From Pseudarthrobacter sulfonivorans (GTDB lineage Bacteria; Actinomycetota; Actinomycetes; Actinomycetales; Micrococcaceae), in the NCBI RefSeq assembly GCF_014712225.1, contig NZ_JACXBW010000004.1, positions 1 to 64,000 of the forward strand: 64,000 nucleotides of DNA. The letters run 5' to 3'. Made by a program: the position numbers and the translations under genes. The notes under the pieces were generated by a model, which made no database searches, was not told the DNA's origin, and saw nothing but the letters and a program-made list of their open reading frames with translations. Shown here piece by piece: positions 8,516 through 50,182 of this stretch. How positions within the stretch are numbered: position 1 is the first letter of the stretch; each line of letters opens with the position of its first letter.

Positions 8516-11500
8516 TTCTTCAGGAAGTACATGTCACTGCCGTTGTGGTCGCCCACAACGGCAGTGCCTATCTCCCCAGGACCCTGGCCGCCCTTGCGGA
8601 CCAGACGCGGCCCGCCGATTCCGTCATCGGAGTGGATACCGGCTCGCGCGACGATTCCACGGTCCTCCTGGAACGGGCTTTAGGCGCAGAGAATGTCATC
8701 AGCTTTCCGCACGGCAGGAGCGGGATGGGTGGCGCCGTGCGCGCCGGGCTCGCCGCGCGCTCACCCTGGGAAGGCCAGTCCGAACGATCCGCCACAGAGT
8801 GGATCTGGCTGCTTCACGATGATGCAGCCCCCGCGCCCGAGGCGCTTGCGGAGCTCCTTGGTGCCGTGGAGCGGGCACCGTCAGTCACAGTCGCCGGCTG
8901 CAAGCAACTGGACTGGCACAGCGAACGCCGCCTGATCGACGTCGGACTGTCCACCAGCCGGTGGGCCGAGCGTCTAACCCTCATCGATGCCGACGAACTC
9001 GATCAAGGCCAATACAACGGCCGGTCGGACACCTTTGCGGTGAACTCAGCCGGAATGCTGGTGCGCCGTGACATCTGGGAACACCTGTCGGGCTTTGACC
9101 CCGCACTGCCGGGAACCGGCGATGACGTCGACTTCTGCTGGCGTAACCGACTCGCCGGGCACCGTGTCGTCGTGGTGCCTACGGCCCGGATGTTCCATGT
9201 GGCACACCGGCCCCACGCCCAAGGAAACCCCTCCGCGGCCCGCAAAGCGCAGGTCCACCTCCGGCTTAAGCATGCGCCGCTCTGGAAAGTGCCTATCCAC
9301 GCCGTGGGCGCGCTGCTCGGCAGCATCTTCAAAGTCGTGCTCAGCGTGGCCGTTAAGGACCCGGGGCACGGATTCGCTCAGCTGGTAGCCACGTTCGCGG
9401 CCCTGGCCCGGCCCACTGCTCTGGCCAAGTCGCGCCGCACGGCGGCCAGTACCCGCCGGATCCGGCGTTCCGTCATCAAGAAGCTGCAGACTCCCCGCCG
9501 CGAAGTGTGGAACCACCGCCGCTCCCTGATCGAAGCCCTGGGCGCAGACAAGTCCAGCGCGGACGGCCTGGTGCATGATCCGCTGGCCGACCAGCCGACA
9601 GGCGACTCCTCAGACGACTTCGCGGCGCTGACCACCACCGAACGGGCCTGGGTGGGTGCCGGCGCGCTCGCTGCCATCATCATCGCGTCTGCCGCTTCCC
9701 TCACGGCGCTGAGCGGCTTGTTCCGCGCGGAAGCCGTTTCCGGCGGCGGACTGATTCCGGTGTCGGCATCCCTGGGGGAAATCTGGCATCACGCCTCAAG
9801 CTGGTGGATCAGCCTGGGGGCCGGCCTTCCCGGCAAGGGCGACCCCTTTGACTACGTGCTGTGGATCCTCGGTGTTCTCGGCGGTGGAGATGCCAATGCG
9901 GCCATGGCGTGGCTGCTGCTGCTCGCTGCCCCGCTGTCCGGCCTGACGGCGTGGTTTGCCTCCGGCGGGGTCACCGTCCGGCGTCGCTTCCGCTTTGTGG
10001 CGGCGCTCTTCTGGGCTGCCGCGCCAGCCTTGCAGGTGGCCCTCAACCAGGGCCGGGTGGGGGCGCTGGTTGCCCACATCGTGATCCCGCTGCTGGTCTT
10101 GGCACTGTTGCGGGCCACAGGGTCCGCCGTGGGCCATGGGCGGTTCGCCCTGCCGTCCCCGGGCGAGCGCCGGTTCACTGAAAAGCCGCCTTCACGGCCC
10201 GGGATCAACGGCATGCCCTCGTGGACCGCCGCAGCCGCTGCGGGCCTGGCCCTGGCGGTCGTTGCCGCCTCTGCACCCGCGCTGCTGATCCCCGCTGCGG
10301 TGCTCATTGTGCTGTGCGGGCTGATGCTGGGCCGGCGTGGCCGCACGGTGTGGTGGGCGCTGCTGCCCAGCGCTGCACTTTTTCTCCCCTTTGGACTCTC
10401 CGTTCTGGACAGGCCGCGGGCGCTCCTGGCGGATCCGGGCGTTCCGCTCGCATTCGAGGCGGCACCGCTGTGGCAGCAGCTTCTGGGCCAGCCGCTGCTC
10501 TTTGCACCCGGCGGTGGACTGTACGGCCTGGCCGGGTTCAGTGGGGAGGTTATCCCGTGGGCACTCTTCCTGGCGCTGCTGGTGGCCGTCCCGGTCCTGC
10601 TGCTCGGTGCGGCAGCTCTCTTTATCCCCGGCAAACGGAGCCGGACGGCGCGCGCCCTGTGGGTAGCGGCGCTGATCATCCTGGTGGGCGGCTGGCTGGC
10701 CGGACATGTTGCTACAGCCGCCAACGCAGACACGTTGGTCACGCCGTTCACCGGCCCGGCTGTTTCGGCCGCCGGCTTCACGCTCCTTGCGGCGGCGCTC
10801 ATCGGCGCCGAGCGCCTGCTGGACGCCGCCGACCGTTCCGCCTCGCTGAACGTCAGGCGCAGCGTAGCCCTTCGCTCTGCCACCGCCGTCGCCACGGTGA
10901 TACTCCTCGCCGGTCCATTGGCCGGCATGGCCGTGTGGTCGGCGCAAAACATCCTTCGGCCCGCTGCTGCCGCGCAATCTGCCGAAGGTCCGGCCGGACC
11001 TTCGCTTGGAACGCCGCGGCTCGTGGAGGCAGGAATTGAACGGACGCTCCCAGCTACGGCGATCGACCGGGGTACCGGACCGGAACAGACCCGCACCCTG
11101 CTCATCAGCACCCACGAGAACGGCACCTATGACGCCTCGCTGATGCGCGGTGCAGGAACCACCTTGGACAGCCTTTCCGCCGTCGCCGCGGCCCGGAACA
11201 TCATGGGCGCACCCGGCCAGGAGACAACCAGGGACGACGACGACGTCACGGCCTCGCTCCGCAGTGTGGTGGCCACACTGGTGGCCGGGCAGGGAGTGGA
11301 CCCCAGGTCGGCATTGGAGCGCCTGGGCGCCGGGTTCGTGGTGCTGCGCTCGGCGGACACGGCAGCCCAGTTGACGGCCAGCAGGATGGACGCCGTGCCG
11401 GGCCTCGTTGCCGTAGGCCAGACGGACGTGGGCTGGCTTTGGCGGATTACCCCGCTCAACCAGCCTGCCCTGCAACCCGCGGACGTCGCCCACCGGGTGC

Positions 11501-42738: not shown

Positions 42739-42856
42739 CAAAAGAACTAAAAACGCCCAGTACCTGTTCACGCTTCCTTGCCTAGGGGTAGTCTTCTTCC
42801 TAAGCGGGGGGCGATGGGGCTTGTTCCCGCTGTATTGGGACGTAGGGGATAAGTTC

Positions 42857-45592
42857 ATGTCAATCGAGCCACTCAGCTGGGAACGTGGGTCGCAGCTCAA
42901 GGACCTTGAGCTGCGGACAGACACCGCCGGCGTGCCAGAGGCGCAGCGATGGTCTGCGCCCGCACGCAGCGCCAACCTCGAAGCAGTCCGTACGGCGCTG
43001 ACCAGCATCGACTCCCTCGGAGTGGTCATCACAGGCGGCCGCGGTGTCGGCAAGTCATCCCTGGCCAGAACTGCCGTATCCGAGCTTGGCCCCGACGTCT
43101 GGACGCTGCAGTTGCGCTGCGGGACCACAACGGGCGACACCCCTTACGGCTGCCTGGCGTTCCTTCTCGCGCGTCTTCCCCAGGCCTACATGGGCTCGCC
43201 AACCGCCATCCTGCGTGGCATAACGTCACTGATCCGCAGCGACGCCGCCGGCCGCCAGTGCGTCATCACCCTGGATACCGCCGGCAGCATTGATGACATG
43301 AGTGCCGGCGTCCTGCTCAACATCCTCCTGACCGGGACCGCGCGCATTGTTGCCGTGGCACCCAAGATCAGCGATCTTCCGGCGGACTTCCACTGGCTTC
43401 TCACCGACCGCCGGCTGACTGAGGTCAGGCTGGACAACCTTAACGAGCTGCAGACCCGCCAGGTGTTGCTTTCCCTGCTGGGGCACCGTGTCTCCGCCTC
43501 CCTGGTCAGTACCTTCCACACGATGGTGGGCGGAAACCCGCTGCTGCTCAAGGCGCTGGTAGCCGAGCAGCAGCAGTCCGGAAATCTGGTGCTGTCGGAC
43601 TCGGTCTGGACATTGCGGGACAAGGTAGTGCTCGACGGCGCTGCGAGCCTCGAGGACATCGTGCGGTCGCGCTGGTCCCGGCAATCCCCGCAAGAGCGGG
43701 AAGTCATCGAAATGCTCTCCTGTGCCCGGCGGGTGGAGCTGTCAAGGCTCACGGCTGTATACGGTGCCGGCATTGTCGCGGACATGGAAGACGCAGGGCT
43801 GCTGGAGATCGACGGGTCCGAGAGCCGCTGGGTTTCACTGCGCGAAATGTACCTCGGTGACGTCGTGCGCTCCTGGCTCAGCATCACCAGGCGGCGGGAA
43901 CTGCGGAATGTGCTTCTGGACAGCCATGAACCCGATCCGGCCAGCATGACCGTGGAAGAGCTGATGGCCTTCGCTGCATGGACCCATGAGTGTGAGGCCG
44001 AGCTGAGTCCCGCCATGGCGCTGGCCGCGGCCGAGGCGGCCGTGCAGCTCTTTGACCCGCACTTCGCCCTCAAATATGCCGAGACGCTGAGGCGCAACGA
44101 CCCCCAATGGGTAGCCGGCCAACGGCAGAAGGCCGCCGCCTACCTGCTCCTGGATCTTCCTGTCCAGGCGATGGCTGCCCTGGACGACATCTCACAGCCG
44201 CAGCTGGACAGCCTGGACGTCCAGGAATACGCCCAGGTCATCGCAGCAAAATCACGGGTCATGGTCTGGCTGCCGGACCACGCCGACAGGGTACCGGCCC
44301 TCCTGCAGACGGCACGGGAGCGGCTCGGGGAAGAACCGGGTAACGCGAAAAAATGGCCTGATCCCGTTGCCGCTGCAGCCAATCGGATCAGCCTGAGCGA
44401 ATTCGAGTACCAGGTGTTCGCGGGAGATTACGCGGCAGCCATTCCGGGCTTGGAAGCCGCTGCCGACCCCGGGCTGAACTCCGACCTGTGGTTCCGGATG
44501 AATTCCGCAATGATCCTGATGACCGCCTTGGCCATGACCGGGCGGGAGATGGACGCCTTGAGCCTGATGAGGCAGTTGGGCGGTCAAATTTCCGACGCCG
44601 GCCAAATCGTGGGCCTGCGCGAGACGTTCACCGAACGCGCTTACTACGTCCTGTTGACCGCCGGGCAGTGGCACCGTTGCATCGATCTCCTCAATCCCGC
44701 AGCCCCTGAGACCCACCAGCTTCCCTACCGAAGCGCCGCCACCGAGTTGGCGGCCGGGATTGCTTACGTCTTCGCGGGGCGGGGCGCCGTTGCCTTGGAT
44801 TCGCTGCTGTCAGCGGTGGCCCAACTCGAGTTGCGGCCCGCCCAGGGCATCCGCCGGGAAGCTTACGCAGCTGTGGCATTCGCCTATGCACAGTTGGGCA
44901 ACGCCGGCCAGTCCCGGAAATATTTGGACAAGTTGCAGCGGACCGGGGGCACCGCCGATCATGTTAGCCGGAGCATCACTGACTTCTGCGCCGACATGGC
45001 CGGCCGGTGGCTGAACGACACCGAGGCCGTCAACCGCCTGAAGGAGTCTGCCCGCGGCGACATCGCGGCGGGGAGGTACACGCTGGCCGGAATCAGCCTT
45101 CTGGGGGCCACGGTCCACGGTACAGAGGCTGACTTCCGCCTGCTCGAAGAAGTGGCCGGCCACCGCCAGGGTCCCTTGGCGGAAATCTCGCGGCTGATTG
45201 CCGTGGGCACCAGGACCCATGACGCCAAGACCTTGCTCGCCGGCGGGGAGTTGGCCGCCACGCTGGAACTGGATGCTGTTGAGGCGCGATGCATGGCGCT
45301 GGCCGTTGACTTCGCCCGTCAGGCCGGCGACCCGGCAGCAGCAAGGACTGCCCAGGCGCGGCTGGACATCCTCGCTGCCACTGTGGCCAGCCTGCCCATC
45401 GTTCCCAGCAGCGGCAGCCCTCTCCTGACCAGCAGGGAAAGGCAGATTGCGCGGCTCGCGGGCAGGGGCGCCTCCAACCGCGACATTGCGCTGGACATGG
45501 GCGTCTCCGTCCGCACGGTGGAAGGCCACCTCTACCAGGTCTTCACCAAACTGGGAGTTACGTCCAGGGGTGATCTGACTGGACTCGTCTAA
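42857..45592 (+). CDS. LuxR-family regulator with AAA ATPase domain (LAL type), first of a pair
   Basis: About 911 residues. The ATPase P-loop GGRGVGKSSLA is near residue 60 and the Walker B-like VITLDTAG near 135; a long helical, TPR-like middle follows, and a C-terminal LuxR helix-turn-helix (LTSRERQIARLAGRGASNRDIALDMGVSVRTVEGHLYQVFTKLGV). LAL regulators sense small molecules or proteins through the middle region and activate transcription. ATG 42857 (SIEPLSWERG) with AGGGG upstream is preferred to TTG 42821. It overlaps the next, paralogous regulator by 14 bp. Its ligand and targets are unknown. Confidence 0.9.
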   Translation: MSIEPLSWERGSQLKDLELRTDTAGVPEAQRWSAPARSANLEAVRTALTSIDSLGVVITGGRGVGKSSLARTAVSELGPDVWTLQLRCGTTTGDTPYGCLAFLLARLPQAYMGSPTAILRGITSLIRSDAAGRQCVITLDTAGSIDDMSAGVLLNILLTGTARIVAVAPKISDLPADFHWLLTDRRLTEVRLDNLNELQTRQVLLSLLGHRVSASLVSTFHTMVGGNPLLLKALVAEQQQSGNLVLSDSVWTLRDKVVLDGAASLEDIVRSRWSRQSPQEREVIEMLSCARRVELSRLTAVYGAGIVADMEDAGLLEIDGSESRWVSLREMYLGDVVRSWLSITRRRELRNVLLDSHEPDPASMTVEELMAFAAWTHECEAELSPAMALAAAEAAVQLFDPHFALKYAETLRRNDPQWVAGQRQKAAAYLLLDLPVQAMAALDDISQPQLDSLDVQEYAQVIAAKSRVMVWLPDHADRVPALLQTARERLGEEPGNAKKWPDPVAAAANRISLSEFEYQVFAGDYAAAIPGLEAAADPGLNSDLWFRMNSAMILMTALAMTGREMDALSLMRQLGGQISDAGQIVGLRETFTERAYYVLLTAGQWHRCIDLLNPAAPETHQLPYRSAATELAAGIAYVFAGRGAVALDSLLSAVAQLELRPAQGIRREAYAAVAFAYAQLGNAGQSRKYLDKLQRTGGTADHVSRSITDFCADMAGRWLNDTEAVNRLKESARGDIAAGRYTLAGISLLGATVHGTEADFRLLEEVAGHRQGPLAEISRLIAVGTRTHDAKTLLAGGELAATLELDAVEARCMALAVDFARQAGDPAAARTAQARLDILAATVASLPIVPSSGSPLLTSRERQIARLAGRGASNRDIALDMGVSVRTVEGHLYQVFTKLGVTSRGDLTGLV

Positions 45593-48251
45593 CGGCCACT
45601 CATCGAAACCGGGCCGCCTGCTCACGGGGCGGCGGCAGCCGCTGGATCGGATCTGCAACATCATCCGGACCCGAACCAGCCAGGCAGTGTTCCTGATGGC
45701 GGGCCCGGGCATCGGCAAGACCGCGTTGGCCGAAGCCATCACCGAGCGGCTGGCCACCGACATGATCATTGTTCAGATCCATGGCAGTTCTGCGCTCTCA
45801 GGCGTTCCTTTTGGCATCCTTGCCCCCTACACAGCGGAGCTGACTGCCGAGGATTCGGTGTCACCGGTGGCTGTCCTGAGGTCCGTCTGGAGCTACTTTG
45901 AAAAGCTCAAAGCGGGCAGGGACGCACCACTGCTGCTCGTGATGGATGATGCCCACCACCTGGACGAGGCTACGGCCAGCATCGTGGCAGACATGATCTC
46001 CGCGGGCTGGGCCAGCGTCGTGGCAGCAGGCAGGCCCCGGCCCGGCCTGCCCCAGCCTCTGGCGCAGCTTTGGTATGACGGCCTTGCCGATCGCGTGGAC
46101 CTTCGTCCGCTGAACCGGGAACAGATCGAGGAAGTCCTTGCCCACGCCCTGGACGGGACGGTCCCCGACGGAACCGTCGACACCATCTGGAGCGCTTCCG
46201 GCGGAAATCCACGGATCCTCGATGCCCTGCTCCATGACGCCGCCGAAGGAGGCCAACTCGCCAAAAGGAACGGGATCTGGATGCTGGTGGAGCAGTTGCC
46301 GGCCGATGGGCCTCGACTGACCAACGTTGTGGTGAAGGACATGCTGCGCCGCACGCCCGCAGAGCAGGAAGCACTGAAGCTGATTGCGCTGGCCGGGCCC
46401 GTGAGCCGAAAGGTGATCGAGGACATCTGCGGCGCTGAAGTGGTGCGCTCCCTGCTTGACCAACAAATGGTGGTAGAGGGCCATGGCACGCCCGCTGACC
46501 TTCGGATCTGGAACGCTATGTTCGGGGACGCCCTCCGGTTAACCATTTCTGTCTCGCGGAGCCTGCAACTTCTGGAAAGGGTACGCGAGCACCTGGGAAC
46601 GTCCCCGGCCGGGTCAGAAGGCCGGTTGAGGGCTGTCGAGTGGGCGCTTGAATGCGGAGTGAAAACAGGAGAGCCTGAGCTCCTTGAAGCGGCCAGCACG
46701 GCGTTGGCCCACTTCAGGAACCCTAGCGCCCGGGCCATGGCGGCAAAAATTATGGACCCGGCACTCGTGCCCGAGGCCCATGCCATTCACGCGCGGGCCC
46801 TGTTCAACGAGGGTGACCACGCCGGCGCCGCAAAGCTCCTGGACGGATGCTGGCTGCAGCTGGGATCCAGCGCCGCCGCGGCCCCCGCCCTGATACTCAG
46901 GGCGCTTGTCCACCAGGCCCTGGGAACACCACTGGCACTGTTCGCAGCCGAGTCCCGTGAAGTGCTCCGCCGCGTCCCTGCTGAAACTGACACAGCCCCG
47001 GGCACGGCCTGGCAGGAGCAGCTGCTTCACCTGCTCGAACTCGGCGAAGCCGGAAACTGCGAGGCCTTGGCCAACGAGGTCCAGGACCTTCGCAGCCGTA
47101 ACCCCGGCGGCCCTACCGACCACGCCCTTCGCACGGTGGGAACCGCCCTGCTCGCACAGACACGCGCTGCAGCCGGACGCGCCGTCCAAGGCCTGGATGC
47201 CGGACTCCTTGCAGTTTCGGAACTCGCTGCGCTGGACGGCGGAGTGTTTTTCTTCAATGAGTTCGTCCTGGGCCGTCTGGTGGCCGACTACCTGGCCCTG
47301 GGGGACTGGGAATCAGCGGAACGGGAGCTGGCGGACTATGCGGCGGATCAGCCTCGGGATGCAGCCGCCTTCGCCGGCAGCATCGAGGTGCTACGCGGCT
47401 ATTCATTGCTGCGGCAGGGGCGGATCGAGCGCGCTTACCAGACGCTCCTGCCTGCGGTAGAGACGCTGAGGCTCAACGATCCCTTGCAGGTGTTCCGGTT
47501 CGGATCCGCACTCGCCTTCTATGTGGCAGCGAGGCTGGGTGACGCTGCCCAGTCCAGCCGGCTCGAGATGGATTATAAGGATTCGCTGCTGGGTTCAGCC
47601 AGCCAGGATCTGCTCGCAACGGCCTACGCTGCGGCGGGTTCGGAGTACGTGACCCGAGACGGGAAGGGATTGGCGTCCCTCCATACCCTGGCCACCACCC
47701 CGGAGGTCTCAGCCAGGGGCGGCACATTGCTGGAACTGTTGGCGCTCTGCTGGGACCTGGGCGACCATTCGGTGATTCCCCTGGTGCACAACCTGGCAGG
47801 CAACGTCCAAGGCCGCTGGGCCGCAGCGCTGCTCAGCCTCGCGGAGCATTGGGAATCCGCCGACGCTGACGCCCTCATGGAGATGGCGGCCCGGCTTGAA
47901 ACCGAGGGCTTCGTCAACGTGGCAAGGGAAGCCTACGCGCGGGCAAGCTCTGTGTGGGAAGCGGTCGGTGAACGCCGCCGGTCCCGCCAGGCTGTGGCCC
48001 TTCGGGAGAAATGCGACCACGAACTTGGCGAGAGGTTCCGGGAGGGCCAGTTCATCGCCGCAGCGCCCACGGTGCACCTCACCCGCCGTGAGCAGGACAT
48101 CGTGGAGCTGGCAGTCCAGGGCCTCACGGATCGGGAAATCGCCCAGCGGCTCATGGTCTCCGTACGAACAGTGGAGGGCCACCTCTACCGCACGTACGTG
48201 AAACTCGGAGTGCGGAGCCGCGACGAACTGTCTACCGCCCTGGCCCACTAA
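45579..48251 (+). CDS. LuxR-family LAL regulator, second of a pair, probable CTG start
   Basis: About 890 residues, organised as its upstream neighbour: P-loop AGPGIGKTALAE, Walker B LLLVMDDAHHLDE, a helical middle, and a C-terminal LuxR domain (LTRREQDIVELAVQGLTDREIAQRLMVSVRTVEGHLYRTYVKLGV). The first standard start is GTG 45687, but the frame stays open and protein-like back to a CTG at 45579. It encodes GRLLTGRRQPLDRICNIIRT, the lead-in helix usual before this P-loop. AGGGG at 45566-45570 sits 8 bases before that CTG. I infer CTG initiation coupled to the first regulator's end; 45687 is the conservative alternative. Confidence 0.85.
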   Translation: MDSSNGHSSKPGRLLTGRRQPLDRICNIIRTRTSQAVFLMAGPGIGKTALAEAITERLATDMIIVQIHGSSALSGVPFGILAPYTAELTAEDSVSPVAVLRSVWSYFEKLKAGRDAPLLLVMDDAHHLDEATASIVADMISAGWASVVAAGRPRPGLPQPLAQLWYDGLADRVDLRPLNREQIEEVLAHALDGTVPDGTVDTIWSASGGNPRILDALLHDAAEGGQLAKRNGIWMLVEQLPADGPRLTNVVVKDMLRRTPAEQEALKLIALAGPVSRKVIEDICGAEVVRSLLDQQMVVEGHGTPADLRIWNAMFGDALRLTISVSRSLQLLERVREHLGTSPAGSEGRLRAVEWALECGVKTGEPELLEAASTALAHFRNPSARAMAAKIMDPALVPEAHAIHARALFNEGDHAGAAKLLDGCWLQLGSSAAAAPALILRALVHQALGTPLALFAAESREVLRRVPAETDTAPGTAWQEQLLHLLELGEAGNCEALANEVQDLRSRNPGGPTDHALRTVGTALLAQTRAAAGRAVQGLDAGLLAVSELAALDGGVFFFNEFVLGRLVADYLALGDWESAERELADYAADQPRDAAAFAGSIEVLRGYSLLRQGRIERAYQTLLPAVETLRLNDPLQVFRFGSALAFYVAARLGDAAQSSRLEMDYKDSLLGSASQDLLATAYAAAGSEYVTRDGKGLASLHTLATTPEVSARGGTLLELLALCWDLGDHSVIPLVHNLAGNVQGRWAAALLSLAEHWESADADALMEMAARLETEGFVNVAREAYARASSVWEAVGERRRSRQAVALREKCDHELGERFREGQFIAAAPTVHLTRREQDIVELAVQGLTDREIAQRLMVSVRTVEGHLYRTYVKLGVRSRDELSTALAH

Positions 48252-48535
48252 GCCCCCTCCACTGCAACCGTCCGCTGACTCCAGCACGAGCTGGGGCCCC
48301 GAATGCATCCCATGCGCTGGTGATGTGCACTGGCGTTCCCATCTGCTGAGGACTGCCCTGGTTGCCCGGATCCTTCGCATTGTGGTGGCTGCCCCGCTTT
48401 GAGTCCGGGCCGCCTGCCGCGCGTTCCGAACCCTACGTTGCCTGCACAGCCGGGGCGTGTCGTGACTTCGAGTGTTCCGGCCCCTGGAATGCGCGTATCA
48501 GCCGGGCCCGCCCCGGTATCCCCACCGTCGAAGTA

Positions 48536-48550
48536 GAGTACTGCCTACTC
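48536..48550. promoter_or_regulatory. Inverted repeat GAGTA-CTGCC-TACTC
   Basis: A 5-bp inverted repeat with 5-bp spacer, within GTAGAGTACTGCCTACTC, lies 285 bases after the second LuxR gene and about 35 bases before the RNA-like region. It could be an operator for the adjacent LAL regulators. A related TAGGGGTAGTC stands ahead of the first LuxR gene (about 42784-42794), which is weak support for a shared site. Confidence 0.35.
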
Positions 48551-48585
48551 GTGCCGTCCGGGTCCGCGTGCGATTAACTTGAGGC

Positions 48586-48742
48586 GGGAGGAAGGAGCGG
48601 CGAAAGCCCTCCAACTCCCACCATCAGACTTTCCAGGTCTTGTCTCAATTCAAACTTTCCGGCCCCCGGGCCGGACCGAGACTGGGCCGGCGACGTCAGA
48701 GTCTTCTGAGACCGAGGCTCTCCCCCCAGCCGTCGCCGGCCC
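48586..48742 (+). ncRNA. Candidate structured RNA or long sufS leader
   Basis: The 605-bp stretch 48252-48856 has no credible gene, but 48586-48742 folds into successive helices. (1) GGGAG (48586-48590) with CTCCC (48615-48619), enclosing GGA/TCC and GGC/GCC closed by a GAAA tetraloop (48602-48605). (2) GTCTC (48642-48646) with GAGAC (48678-48682), enclosing TCCGGCCC (48658-48665) with GGGCCGGA (48668-48675). (3) a 12-bp stem GGGCCGGCGACG (48684-48695) with 48731-48742, enclosing TCAGA/TCTGA (48696-48709) and a GCT/AGC hairpin with six C in its loop (48717-48730). A terminator-like hairpin follows at 48769. It matches no family I can name; the C6 loop only loosely recalls the actinobacterial 6C RNA. 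The rest of the stretch (48252-48535) shows nothing I can assign. Confidence 0.4.
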
Positions 48743-48768
48743 TCTTATCCGCGGGCTGAAGCCCGGAG

Positions 48769-48806
48769 CCACTGTGGCGGCCGCCCCCGGGCGGCCGCCA
48801 CAGTGG
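48769..48806 (+). terminator. 18-bp perfect hairpin upstream of sufS
   Basis: CCACTGTGGCGGCCGCCC (48769-48786) pairs perfectly with 48789-48806 around a 2-nt loop, giving a very stable stem, then TGTTGTGGGAC. It could end a transcript from the RNA-like region or the LuxR pair, on either strand. It leaves about 50 bp for a sufS promoter, with ATTGAATGTCAATCC as the AT-richer part. Confidence 0.6.
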
Positions 48807-48856
48807 TGTTGTGGGACAATTGAATGTCAATCCATTGGCATTTCAAGGAGCTCACT

Positions 48857-50182
48857 TTGGCATTCGTAACCACGCCAGCCACGCTGGAACATGCCGTTCC
48901 GGCCATGGACAACGCCGAAGTACTGAGAATCAGGAATGACTTCCCGGTGCTGGACCAGTTGGTGAATGGCCGGCCGCTGGTGTATCTGGATTCGGGTGCC
49001 ACATCGCAGAATCCCTTGAGCGTTATCGAGGCTGAGCAGGAATTCTACGAACAGCGCAACGCAGCCGTACACCGCGGCGCGCACCACCTTGCGGTCGAGG
49101 CCACCGAAGTCTTCGAGGACGCCCGCCAGGCCATTGCAGATTTCATCGGGGCCGAGTACGCGGAAACGGTGTGGACCTCCAATGCCACCGAGGGCCTGAA
49201 CCTGGTCAGCTATGCGCTGTCCAATGCCGCCCTGTGGTCTGCCCGGGGACGCGGCGACGCCAGGCTCAAGGAGCTGGCTGTGGGCCCGGGGGACCAGATC
49301 GTGGTCACCGAAATGGAGCACCACGCCAACCTGATCCCTTGGCAGGAACTCGCTTTCCGAACCGGCGCCACCTTGCGCTACATCCCCATCGACGACTCCG
49401 GAGCCCTGCGCCTGGACCTCGCGGCTGAGATCCTGGCAAGCAAGACCAAGGTCCTCGCCTTCACCCACGCGTCCAATGTCCTGGGAACCATCAACCCGGT
49501 CAAGGAACTGGTGGCCCTTGGCCGGGCGGCGGAAGCGCTGGTGGTGCTGGACGCCTGCCAGTCCGCGCCCCACTTGCCGCTGGACGTCAAGGAACTCGAC
49601 GTCGACTTCGCCGTCTTCTCCGGCCACAAAATGCTCGCGCCCACCGGAATCGGCGTGCTGTATGGCAAGCAGGACCTTCTGGATGTGCTGCCCCCGTTCC
49701 TCACCGGCGGTTCCATGATCACCACCGTCACCATGGAACGTGCCGAGTACCTGCCCTCGCCGCAGCGCTTCGAAGCCGGTACCCAACGCATCTCCCAGGC
49801 CGTGGCCCTTGCCGCCGCGGCCAGCTACCTCACAGAAACGGGACTGGCCCGGGTGCACCAATGGGAAACTGAGCTTGGCCAGCGCATGGTGGCCGGCCTT
49901 GAAGCCCTTCCCGGAATACGTGTCCTGGGGCCCGCCGCCGGGCAGGAGAGGATTGGCCTGGCCGCGTTCGACGTCGAGGGTGTTCACGCGCATGACGTCG
50001 GGCAGTTCCTGGATTCCCGGGGCATCGCGGTCCGGGTGGGGCACCACTGCGCCCAGCCCCTGCACCGCCGCCTGGGCCTGACGGCAACCACCAGGGCGAG
50101 TGCCTACCTGTACAACACCACCGACGACGTCGACGCTTTCCTCGAGGCCGTTGCCGGCGTCCGCTCCTACTTCCGCGTCTGA
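48857..50182 (+). CDS. sufS: SufS-type cysteine desulfurase
   Basis: A 441-residue PLP enzyme taking sulfur from cysteine for Fe-S cluster assembly. VYLDSGATSQNP opens the fold, TEMEHHANLIPW holds the cofactor-stacking His, FSGHKMLAPTGIG the PLP Lys (Lys258), and RVGHHCAQPLHRR the persulfide Cys (Cys398). The start is TTG 48857 with AAGGAG 6 bases upstream (48845-48850); a longer frame from 48824 lacks such a site. It is followed 25 bp later by sufU, its sulfur acceptor in Gram-positive bacteria. No sufBCD genes are in the window. Confidence 0.95.
   Translation: MAFVTTPATLEHAVPAMDNAEVLRIRNDFPVLDQLVNGRPLVYLDSGATSQNPLSVIEAEQEFYEQRNAAVHRGAHHLAVEATEVFEDARQAIADFIGAEYAETVWTSNATEGLNLVSYALSNAALWSARGRGDARLKELAVGPGDQIVVTEMEHHANLIPWQELAFRTGATLRYIPIDDSGALRLDLAAEILASKTKVLAFTHASNVLGTINPVKELVALGRAAEALVVLDACQSAPHLPLDVKELDVDFAVFSGHKMLAPTGIGVLYGKQDLLDVLPPFLTGGSMITTVTMERAEYLPSPQRFEAGTQRISQAVALAAAASYLTETGLARVHQWETELGQRMVAGLEALPGIRVLGPAAGQERIGLAAFDVEGVHAHDVGQFLDSRGIAVRVGHHCAQPLHRRLGLTATTRASAYLYNTTDDVDAFLEAVAGVRSYFRV

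Follow-up and report, generated by a model that had tools for sequence, protein, structure and literature searches.

Two RNA classes with well-defined architectures serve as reference points: ANTAR-target RNAs carry two hexaloop hairpins, ANTAR proteins being a known class of antiterminators, and Ms1 and other 6S-like RNAs form a long stem with a central bubble. Several related sRNAs per genome are described, in the portions of the literature available, for the Qrr siblings of Vibrio, which act within a quorum-sensing pathway. A further, actinobacterial reference is the 6C RNA, which we take to be Rfam family RF01066. Excerpts on 6C describe an actinobacterial sRNA of ~100 nt with C-runs and two stem-loops, each typically with six Cs (PMC4046766), and cite the M. 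tuberculosis 6C RNA as binding mRNAs through its C-rich parts (PMC6789036). Ms1 is likewise an actinobacterial sRNA, Arthrobacter stands in the table of genera with a predicted Ms1, and the accessible text of that article, in whose main part sufS does not appear, places Ms1 in a HAD hydrolase neighbourhood and describes its binding to the RNA polymerase core (PMC9130861).

Regulatory RNAs seem little described in the Micrococcaceae: among the matches listed by a literature search, there was no paper centred on sRNAs of this family and no description of the RNA reported here. The gap between a pair of LuxR-type regulator genes and sufS was analysed in a stretch of 64,000 nt from Pseudarthrobacter sulfonivorans (the window). 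Its core hairpin, P2, belongs to what looks like a real, previously unlisted small-RNA family in Arthrobacter-related soil bacteria, often encoded beside LuxR-type regulators, which may help to control cell-surface genes.

Structure of the intergenic region

The gap runs over 605 bp (48252-48856) from the end of the second LuxR gene (48251) to the TTG start of sufS (48857), and the ORF coordinates agreed with the gene-free length given in a first-pass annotation of the window (Table 1). More helical structure than expected by chance had also been proposed there, and this was borne out, with 48540-48860 folding at -163.2 kcal/mol against -127.5 ± 6.0 kcal/mol for 100 shuffles, none of which did as well (z -5.9). 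The minus strand of this segment folds as well (z -6.2), so folding energy cannot assign the strand; the plus strand was assigned because G-U cells exceed A-C cells in P2 (57 against 12), the covariance-model score is higher (81.3 against 28.7 bits), and the promoter points in this direction. Three single elements named in the same annotation were all located, namely a GAAA tetraloop hairpin (GAAAGC at 48602-48607), an 18-bp terminator-like hairpin (the long hairpin P4), and an inverted repeat, a possible operator, just upstream (the dyad, located at 48536-48550).

Table 1. Positions of genes, promoter elements and RNA elements in the window
Feature	Positions	Strand	Basis
LAL-type LuxR regulator 1	42821-45592	+	ORF; Pfam GerE 4.3e-13, AAA matches sub-threshold
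LAL-type LuxR regulator 2	45687-48251	+	ORF; Pfam GerE 1e-12, AAA matches sub-threshold
Dyad GAGTA-N5-TACTCGTG, proposed activator site	48536-48553	+	Centre ~ -43 from predicted start
-10 box TTAACT (predicted)	48574-48579	+	Dyad-to-box spacing
Variable 5' RNA part with GAAA hairpin	48586-48657	+	Fold; variability by inspection
Hairpin P1 (UCCGGCC..GGCCGGA)	48658-48675	+	Seen in part of the family only
Core hairpin P2	48684-48742	+	Covariation; covariance models R1 and R2
P2 outer 12-bp stem	48684-48695/48731-48742	+	Comparative pair counts
P2 inner stem	48698-48705/48714-48721	+	Comparative pair counts
P2 loop CUGAGACC	48706-48713	+	AGAC the same in all 23 copies; G and C beside it at least 90%
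Unpaired C-run CCCCCCAG, proposed seed	48722-48729	+	Conservation in 23 copies
Hairpin P3	48749-48766	+	Seen in sufS-adjacent copies
Long hairpin P4, likely terminator	48768-48807	+	Fold, conservation
GGGACAATTG..TGTC (TGTGGGACAATTG..GTCA within 48810-48850) and hairpin P5	48813-48846	+	Conserved, 32 aligned gaps
sufS (TTG start)	48857-50182	+	Pfam Aminotran_5 7.4e-135

In 23 diverged copies of P2, both sides have changed at 15 of 21 pairs, a level that none of 500 shuffles reached. A lack of compensatory changes in orthologous gaps was to count against the first-pass annotation; such changes are present, and its small-RNA reading is supported. Over the whole structure, 91.1% of cells are paired and 50 cells changed on both sides, with at most 57.6% paired in slid control structures. 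In alignment A4, which stands behind model R2, the fold of each P2 segment helped to set where it was trimmed, a bias towards the outer-stem ends, and the aligner was blind to structure. The 12-bp stem seen earlier was retained, but the two hairpins that it had been thought to close, one with six Cs in its loop, were not: that arrangement pairs 66.9% of cells with 7 changed on both sides, weaker than the one-hairpin P2. On these pair counts the 12-bp stem more likely encloses a single inner hairpin, and the six Cs follow it on the 3' side without pairing. GAGACC in the loop and CCCCAG in the unpaired C-run are nearly invariant; in the latter, two Cs do not vary across the 23 copies, and another two Cs, together with the A and G, reach 90% or above. 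By covariation and folding, P2 is a stable hairpin and a structured RNA with an exposed, conserved single-stranded segment.

Around P2, the loop of P1 varies and the hairpin is absent from part of the family, as judged by inspection, and P5 sits before, and next to, the sufS ribosome site. The stretch 48810-48850 has the look of an operator or control element of sufS in its own right, and the separately conserved sequence nearest sufS (48768-48850) may regulate that gene. A peptide-coding reading was considered and set aside: of the three forward frames in the window, two run through P2 without a stop, yet over the 150 nt up to the P2 end the frames are open in 53, 0 and 45 of 93 distinct orthologues, and with no frame open in all 93 a peptide is not favoured.

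Copies and distribution

A BLAST search with 48540-48830 gave a match in 185 of 198 genomes of the genus and none in 13; many of these matches cover little beyond P2. Paralogues were traced via extra matches inside single genomes. Searching the genome of the window (own genome) with model R1 (91 positions, 27 pairs; E up to 1) produced seven matches: one was weak, one was the window copy read on its reverse strand, and the remaining five were copies. C1, the sixth copy, was spotted behind a promoter match, with an R1 score of only 28.3 bits (E 0.0027); R1 was built without C1, and R2 recovers it by construction, C1 being included in A4. Model E-values are rough, and searches of more than 40 genomes used stricter filters, with the loss of weak matches.

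R1 matched 8 of 149 genomes in a sample of the order, all from the same family. Within the family, the P2 model R2 matched 58 of the 120 genomes searched, from 17 of 32 genera, and found 109 copies in all, at most six to a genome, of which, by our tally, 18 copies from 8 of the 58 genomes stood in the model's own alignment; in a sample of the class it matched 3 of 296 genomes, all of the window's genus. The exact core, among 80 of 84 stretches listed, was found in Arthrobacter, Pseudarthrobacter, Paenarthrobacter, and one Micrococcaceae assembly, the listed records including Paenarthrobacter aurescens TC1 and Pseudarthrobacter chlorophenolicus. Copies of the RNA core or partial matches lie on three Arthrobacter plasmid records (NZ_CP013201.1, 4507-4560; NC_018532.1, 108003-108041; NZ_AP024648.1, 1008170-1008243), one plasmid being only 11 kb, and a phage search gave no match to the RNA.

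Several variants were observed. A second P2 subfamily has CCCCCAUCCC in the bulge (L162:3449-3505, L164:10558-10614, L171:16108-16164) and, in L162 and L171, lies between pth and the LAL pair and is followed by a U-run. Tandem P2 copies (L165:8495-8554 and 8612-8671) stand directly 5' of an exopolysaccharide-type sugar transferase, and in another variant (L248:156-215), which carries ACCCCCAG and has an exact dyad promoter ahead of it, the inner stem is longer and the loop altered.

Predicted promoter and transcription units

The dyad and -10 box ahead of the window copy form a predicted promoter, from which transcription would start near 48586, and a dyad placed near -43 points to class II activation. 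AGTA-N5-TACTCGTG together with a -10 box was present in 26 of 31 genus genomes (reversed control, 0). Upstream of 111 P2-like stretches, a loose set with false positives included, half-site plus -10 box was found at 63, with a spacing of exactly 20 nt in 60 of these; the controls gave 0 (reversed), 1 (reverse complement), and 3 of 109 (downstream), and some of the 48 loosely found copies lacking the promoter are false positives. In the own genome, sequence prediction places a promoter before five of the six copies (dyad mismatches 0, 2, 2, 2 and 3; no site at the C57 copy), with 20 nt between dyad and -10 box in four and 21 nt at C4. The exact dyad occurs six times in that genome; loosened to up to 2 mismatches it is unspecific there (65 matches against 126 in the control), as is half-site plus -10 box (18 against 21).

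The distance from the end of the -10 box to P2 is 7-8 nt at C4, C23 and C1, 104 nt at the window copy, and 122 nt at C3. P2 itself is therefore the likely unit at the first three, with predicted RNAs of ~60-70 nt, and for this reason the 200-250 nt previously put forward as the functional unit finds no support. The window transcript is predicted to measure ~157 nt to the P2 end, or ~220 nt with the long hairpin as its end. A U-run follows P2 in several copies and is weak in the window copy (CUCUUAUCC). At two further loci, L093 (G000:C1, near 277350-277451) and L242, the same promoter type precedes a different hairpin, GCCGGCGG...CCGCCGGC; that of L093 contains CUGGGG and is possibly a sponge or another RNA.

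Genes downstream of P2

The gene after P2 was assigned for 48 P2-like stretches (drawn from 76 loci, mostly the genomes' best matches, with sufS-type BLAST loci excluded and some false positives remaining): it is a sugar transferase in 21, sufS in 6, and neither in 21. Only 6 of the 48 preceding sufS, P2 was taken to define a small-RNA family and not mainly a sufS leader. The alternative raised in the first-pass annotation, a long regulated sufS leader that might sense iron or sulfur, is thus unsupported as the main reading, and in the form of a metabolite- or iron-sulfur-sensing leader we give it next to no credence. It would account for the strong conservation of 48768-48850 before sufS and for the hairpin adjoining the ribosome site, but not for the 42 of 48 stretches that have no sufS behind them, nor for the named loci of the genus, where 39 distinct ones have a sufS-type downstream element and 42 of 81 (about half) are without it or not assessable, nor for the own genome, where five of six copies sit away from sufS.

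Because P2 stands so close ahead of sugar transferase genes, attenuation in the leader has to be taken seriously as a rival. P2 would then be a conditional terminator acting in cis in the leaders of LAL-controlled operons, a factor bound to the loop and C-run choosing termination or read-through. Under ~110 nt separate P2 from the gene in 16 of the 21 sugar transferase cases (offsets approximate; Pfam Bac_transf confirmed in 5 of 5 tested), 6 of 48 stretches precede sufS, U-runs follow P2 in several copies, and ANTAR proteins occur among the genes sharing the promoter. We nevertheless judge this reading rather unlikely, and assign the operons it would govern (EPS sugar transferase, sufS, camelysin) with equal reserve: 21 of 48 stretches have neither sugar transferase nor sufS behind them, the C57 copy lies between convergent genes, and at the C23 copy ~1.2 kb passes without a same-strand gene (both by our own gene caller). 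The P2 loop is also unlike the dual hexaloop of ANTAR RNAs. Attenuation and a trans-acting sRNA may both hold, with terminated leaders acting as sRNAs.

Association with LAL regulators

Homologues of LAL regulator 2 (E up to 1e-30) were found in 61 of 120 family genomes, and adjoin P2 in other genera. P2 and LAL occur together in 52 genomes, P2 alone in 6, LAL alone in 9, and neither in 53 (Fisher p 9e-18, uncorrected for relatedness of the genomes). A LAL gene stands upstream of P2 on its strand, at a distance of 108-973 nt, for 48 of the 109 copies; these come from 43 of the 58 genomes. A dyad-like site lies ~165 bp before the LAL pair in L169 and another overlaps the called start of a LAL gene in L165; ahead of the LAL pair in the window, there is no site of that quality. 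These comparisons establish, at the level of sequence, a multi-copy family of defined structure and strand with a shared promoter motif and a link to LAL genes, and a LAL-type LuxR regulator, probably the adjacent pair, would be the activator of the predicted P2 promoters.

A stable hairpin often directly downstream of LAL genes might also be a mere LAL-operon terminator or a repeated palindrome with no regulatory role. This we consider very improbable, as the loop and bulge are conserved more than a terminator requires, the stems covary, and all but one of the six own-genome copies come with a promoter site of their own.

Promoter-sharing genes and candidate targets

Genes behind the same promoter encode, by Pfam, an Hpt protein, two ANTAR proteins (GAF matches below threshold in one), a GH16 enzyme, and glycosyltransferases. 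A camelysin-like protein gene follows the sixth P2 copy, and a further gene behind the promoter encodes a small membrane-like protein without a Pfam match, its membrane character being read from the sequence. For analysis of leaders, only promoters with exactly 20 nt spacing were used, giving 55 distinct leaders, of which 45 were called mRNA-type by a loose pattern; within this set L248 is really an sRNA copy, L183 is probably misfiled, and the 20 groups merge distinct genes. Gene starts were taken from a simple codon-score caller, not from annotation.

All 15 leaders of the membrane-protein group contain GGGGG, and 13 of the 15 CUGGGGG; in the ANTAR group GGGGG occurs in 8 of 9. This compares with a base rate of 12 of 200 starts for GGGGG (18 of 200 on a lenient count) and 3 of 200 upstream regions for CUGGGG. 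Four of the 45 leaders contain GGUCUCA, the loop complement; the reverse complement of GGUCUCA is found in none of them. Relative to shuffles of the same leaders, GGGGG is hardly enriched (7.0 against 5.6 of 20 groups), and CUGGGG is enriched, at 3.5 against 1.0 with 4 as the maximum over 1000 shuffles. For four own-genome leaders, duplex energies did not clearly beat shuffles in any case (28, 84, 150 and 161 of 300 as good). Since GGGGG is not clearly above shuffles and duplex energies are unremarkable, pairing is treated here as a hypothesis. The G-run lies directly 5' of the called start in the Hpt and ANTAR leaders and in part of the membrane-protein leaders; in part of the latter group the start may lie further downstream, which would place the motif away from the ribosome site in those leaders.

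The reading that we favour, with some hesitation, is a multi-copy family of self-terminating sRNAs, activated by LAL regulators and pairing in trans with leaders that share their promoter. A LAL-type LuxR regulator, bound at the dyad centred ~43 bp upstream of the start, would activate the plus-strand promoters. P2 would be the working part, its outer stem closing and ending the RNA and its fold presenting the GAGACC loop and the unpaired CCCCAG C-run, which could pair in trans with CUGGGGG, GGGGG or GGUCUCA in promoter-sharing leaders (those of ANTAR, Hpt and small membrane proteins and of surface enzymes) and so damp translation. Against this sRNA reading, G5 may simply be the ribosome site, 21 of 48 stretches precede a sugar transferase, which suits a role in cis, and six genomes with P2 have no LAL match.

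Conservation of loop and C-run over 23 copies could instead reflect a protein site, P2 being a protein-binding decoy or scaffold whose exposed segments are not antisense seeds, and several copies per genome are a feature of CsrB-type decoys as well. The loop has no GGA motif, however, and complementary G-rich leaders are conserved in the promoter-sharing genes; we hold a protein-binding role to be improbable.

Extending the sRNA reading, we tentatively envisage, without as yet thinking it probable, a lineage-specific riboregulatory network in which the tandem LAL pair would drive sibling sRNAs together with promoter-sharing mRNAs whose G-only ribosome sites or leaders match the C-run and loop of the sRNA, exopolysaccharide and surface genes being co-induced with their own translational brake. 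Termination within the leader of the sugar transferase may be a further source of the RNA in this scheme. The P2 family also points to a connection, open to test, between an sRNA brake and the genes for surface polysaccharide. To our knowledge, binding sites of LAL regulators are seldom known, and sequence comparison now links these regulators to a precise DNA motif as a candidate site. The P2 family offers a comparatively tested structure, a promoter code, and a candidate regulator and targets, in tractable soil bacteria.

Comparison with known RNA families

An Rfam scan of the window and 19 further loci returned only tRNA at the gathering score and no 6C. Matches up to E 10 at 48240-48900 were to microRNAs, Scr3202 and others, all far below their gathering scores, and the 6C family, suggested as worth a scan in the first-pass annotation, was absent for the window copy even at this threshold. 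As far as the excerpts on 6C describe it, the P2 RNA as proposed resembles it in being an actinobacterial sRNA with a C-run, and differs in having one bulged hairpin with a single C-run and a GAGACC loop where 6C has two stem-loops; P2 is also multi-copy and, among the genomes searched, confined to one family. From Ms1, going by the accessible text on that RNA, P2 differs in neighbourhood, lying near the LAL pair, sufS or a sugar transferase. The likeness to the Qrr RNAs, again within the literature portions available, is an analogy of circuit only. Qrr RNAs belong to another phylum and have another structure and regulator class. With its single octaloop, P2 does not have the two hexaloops of ANTAR-target RNAs, and the point shared with that system is the presence of ANTAR proteins among the genes that carry the P2 promoter type.
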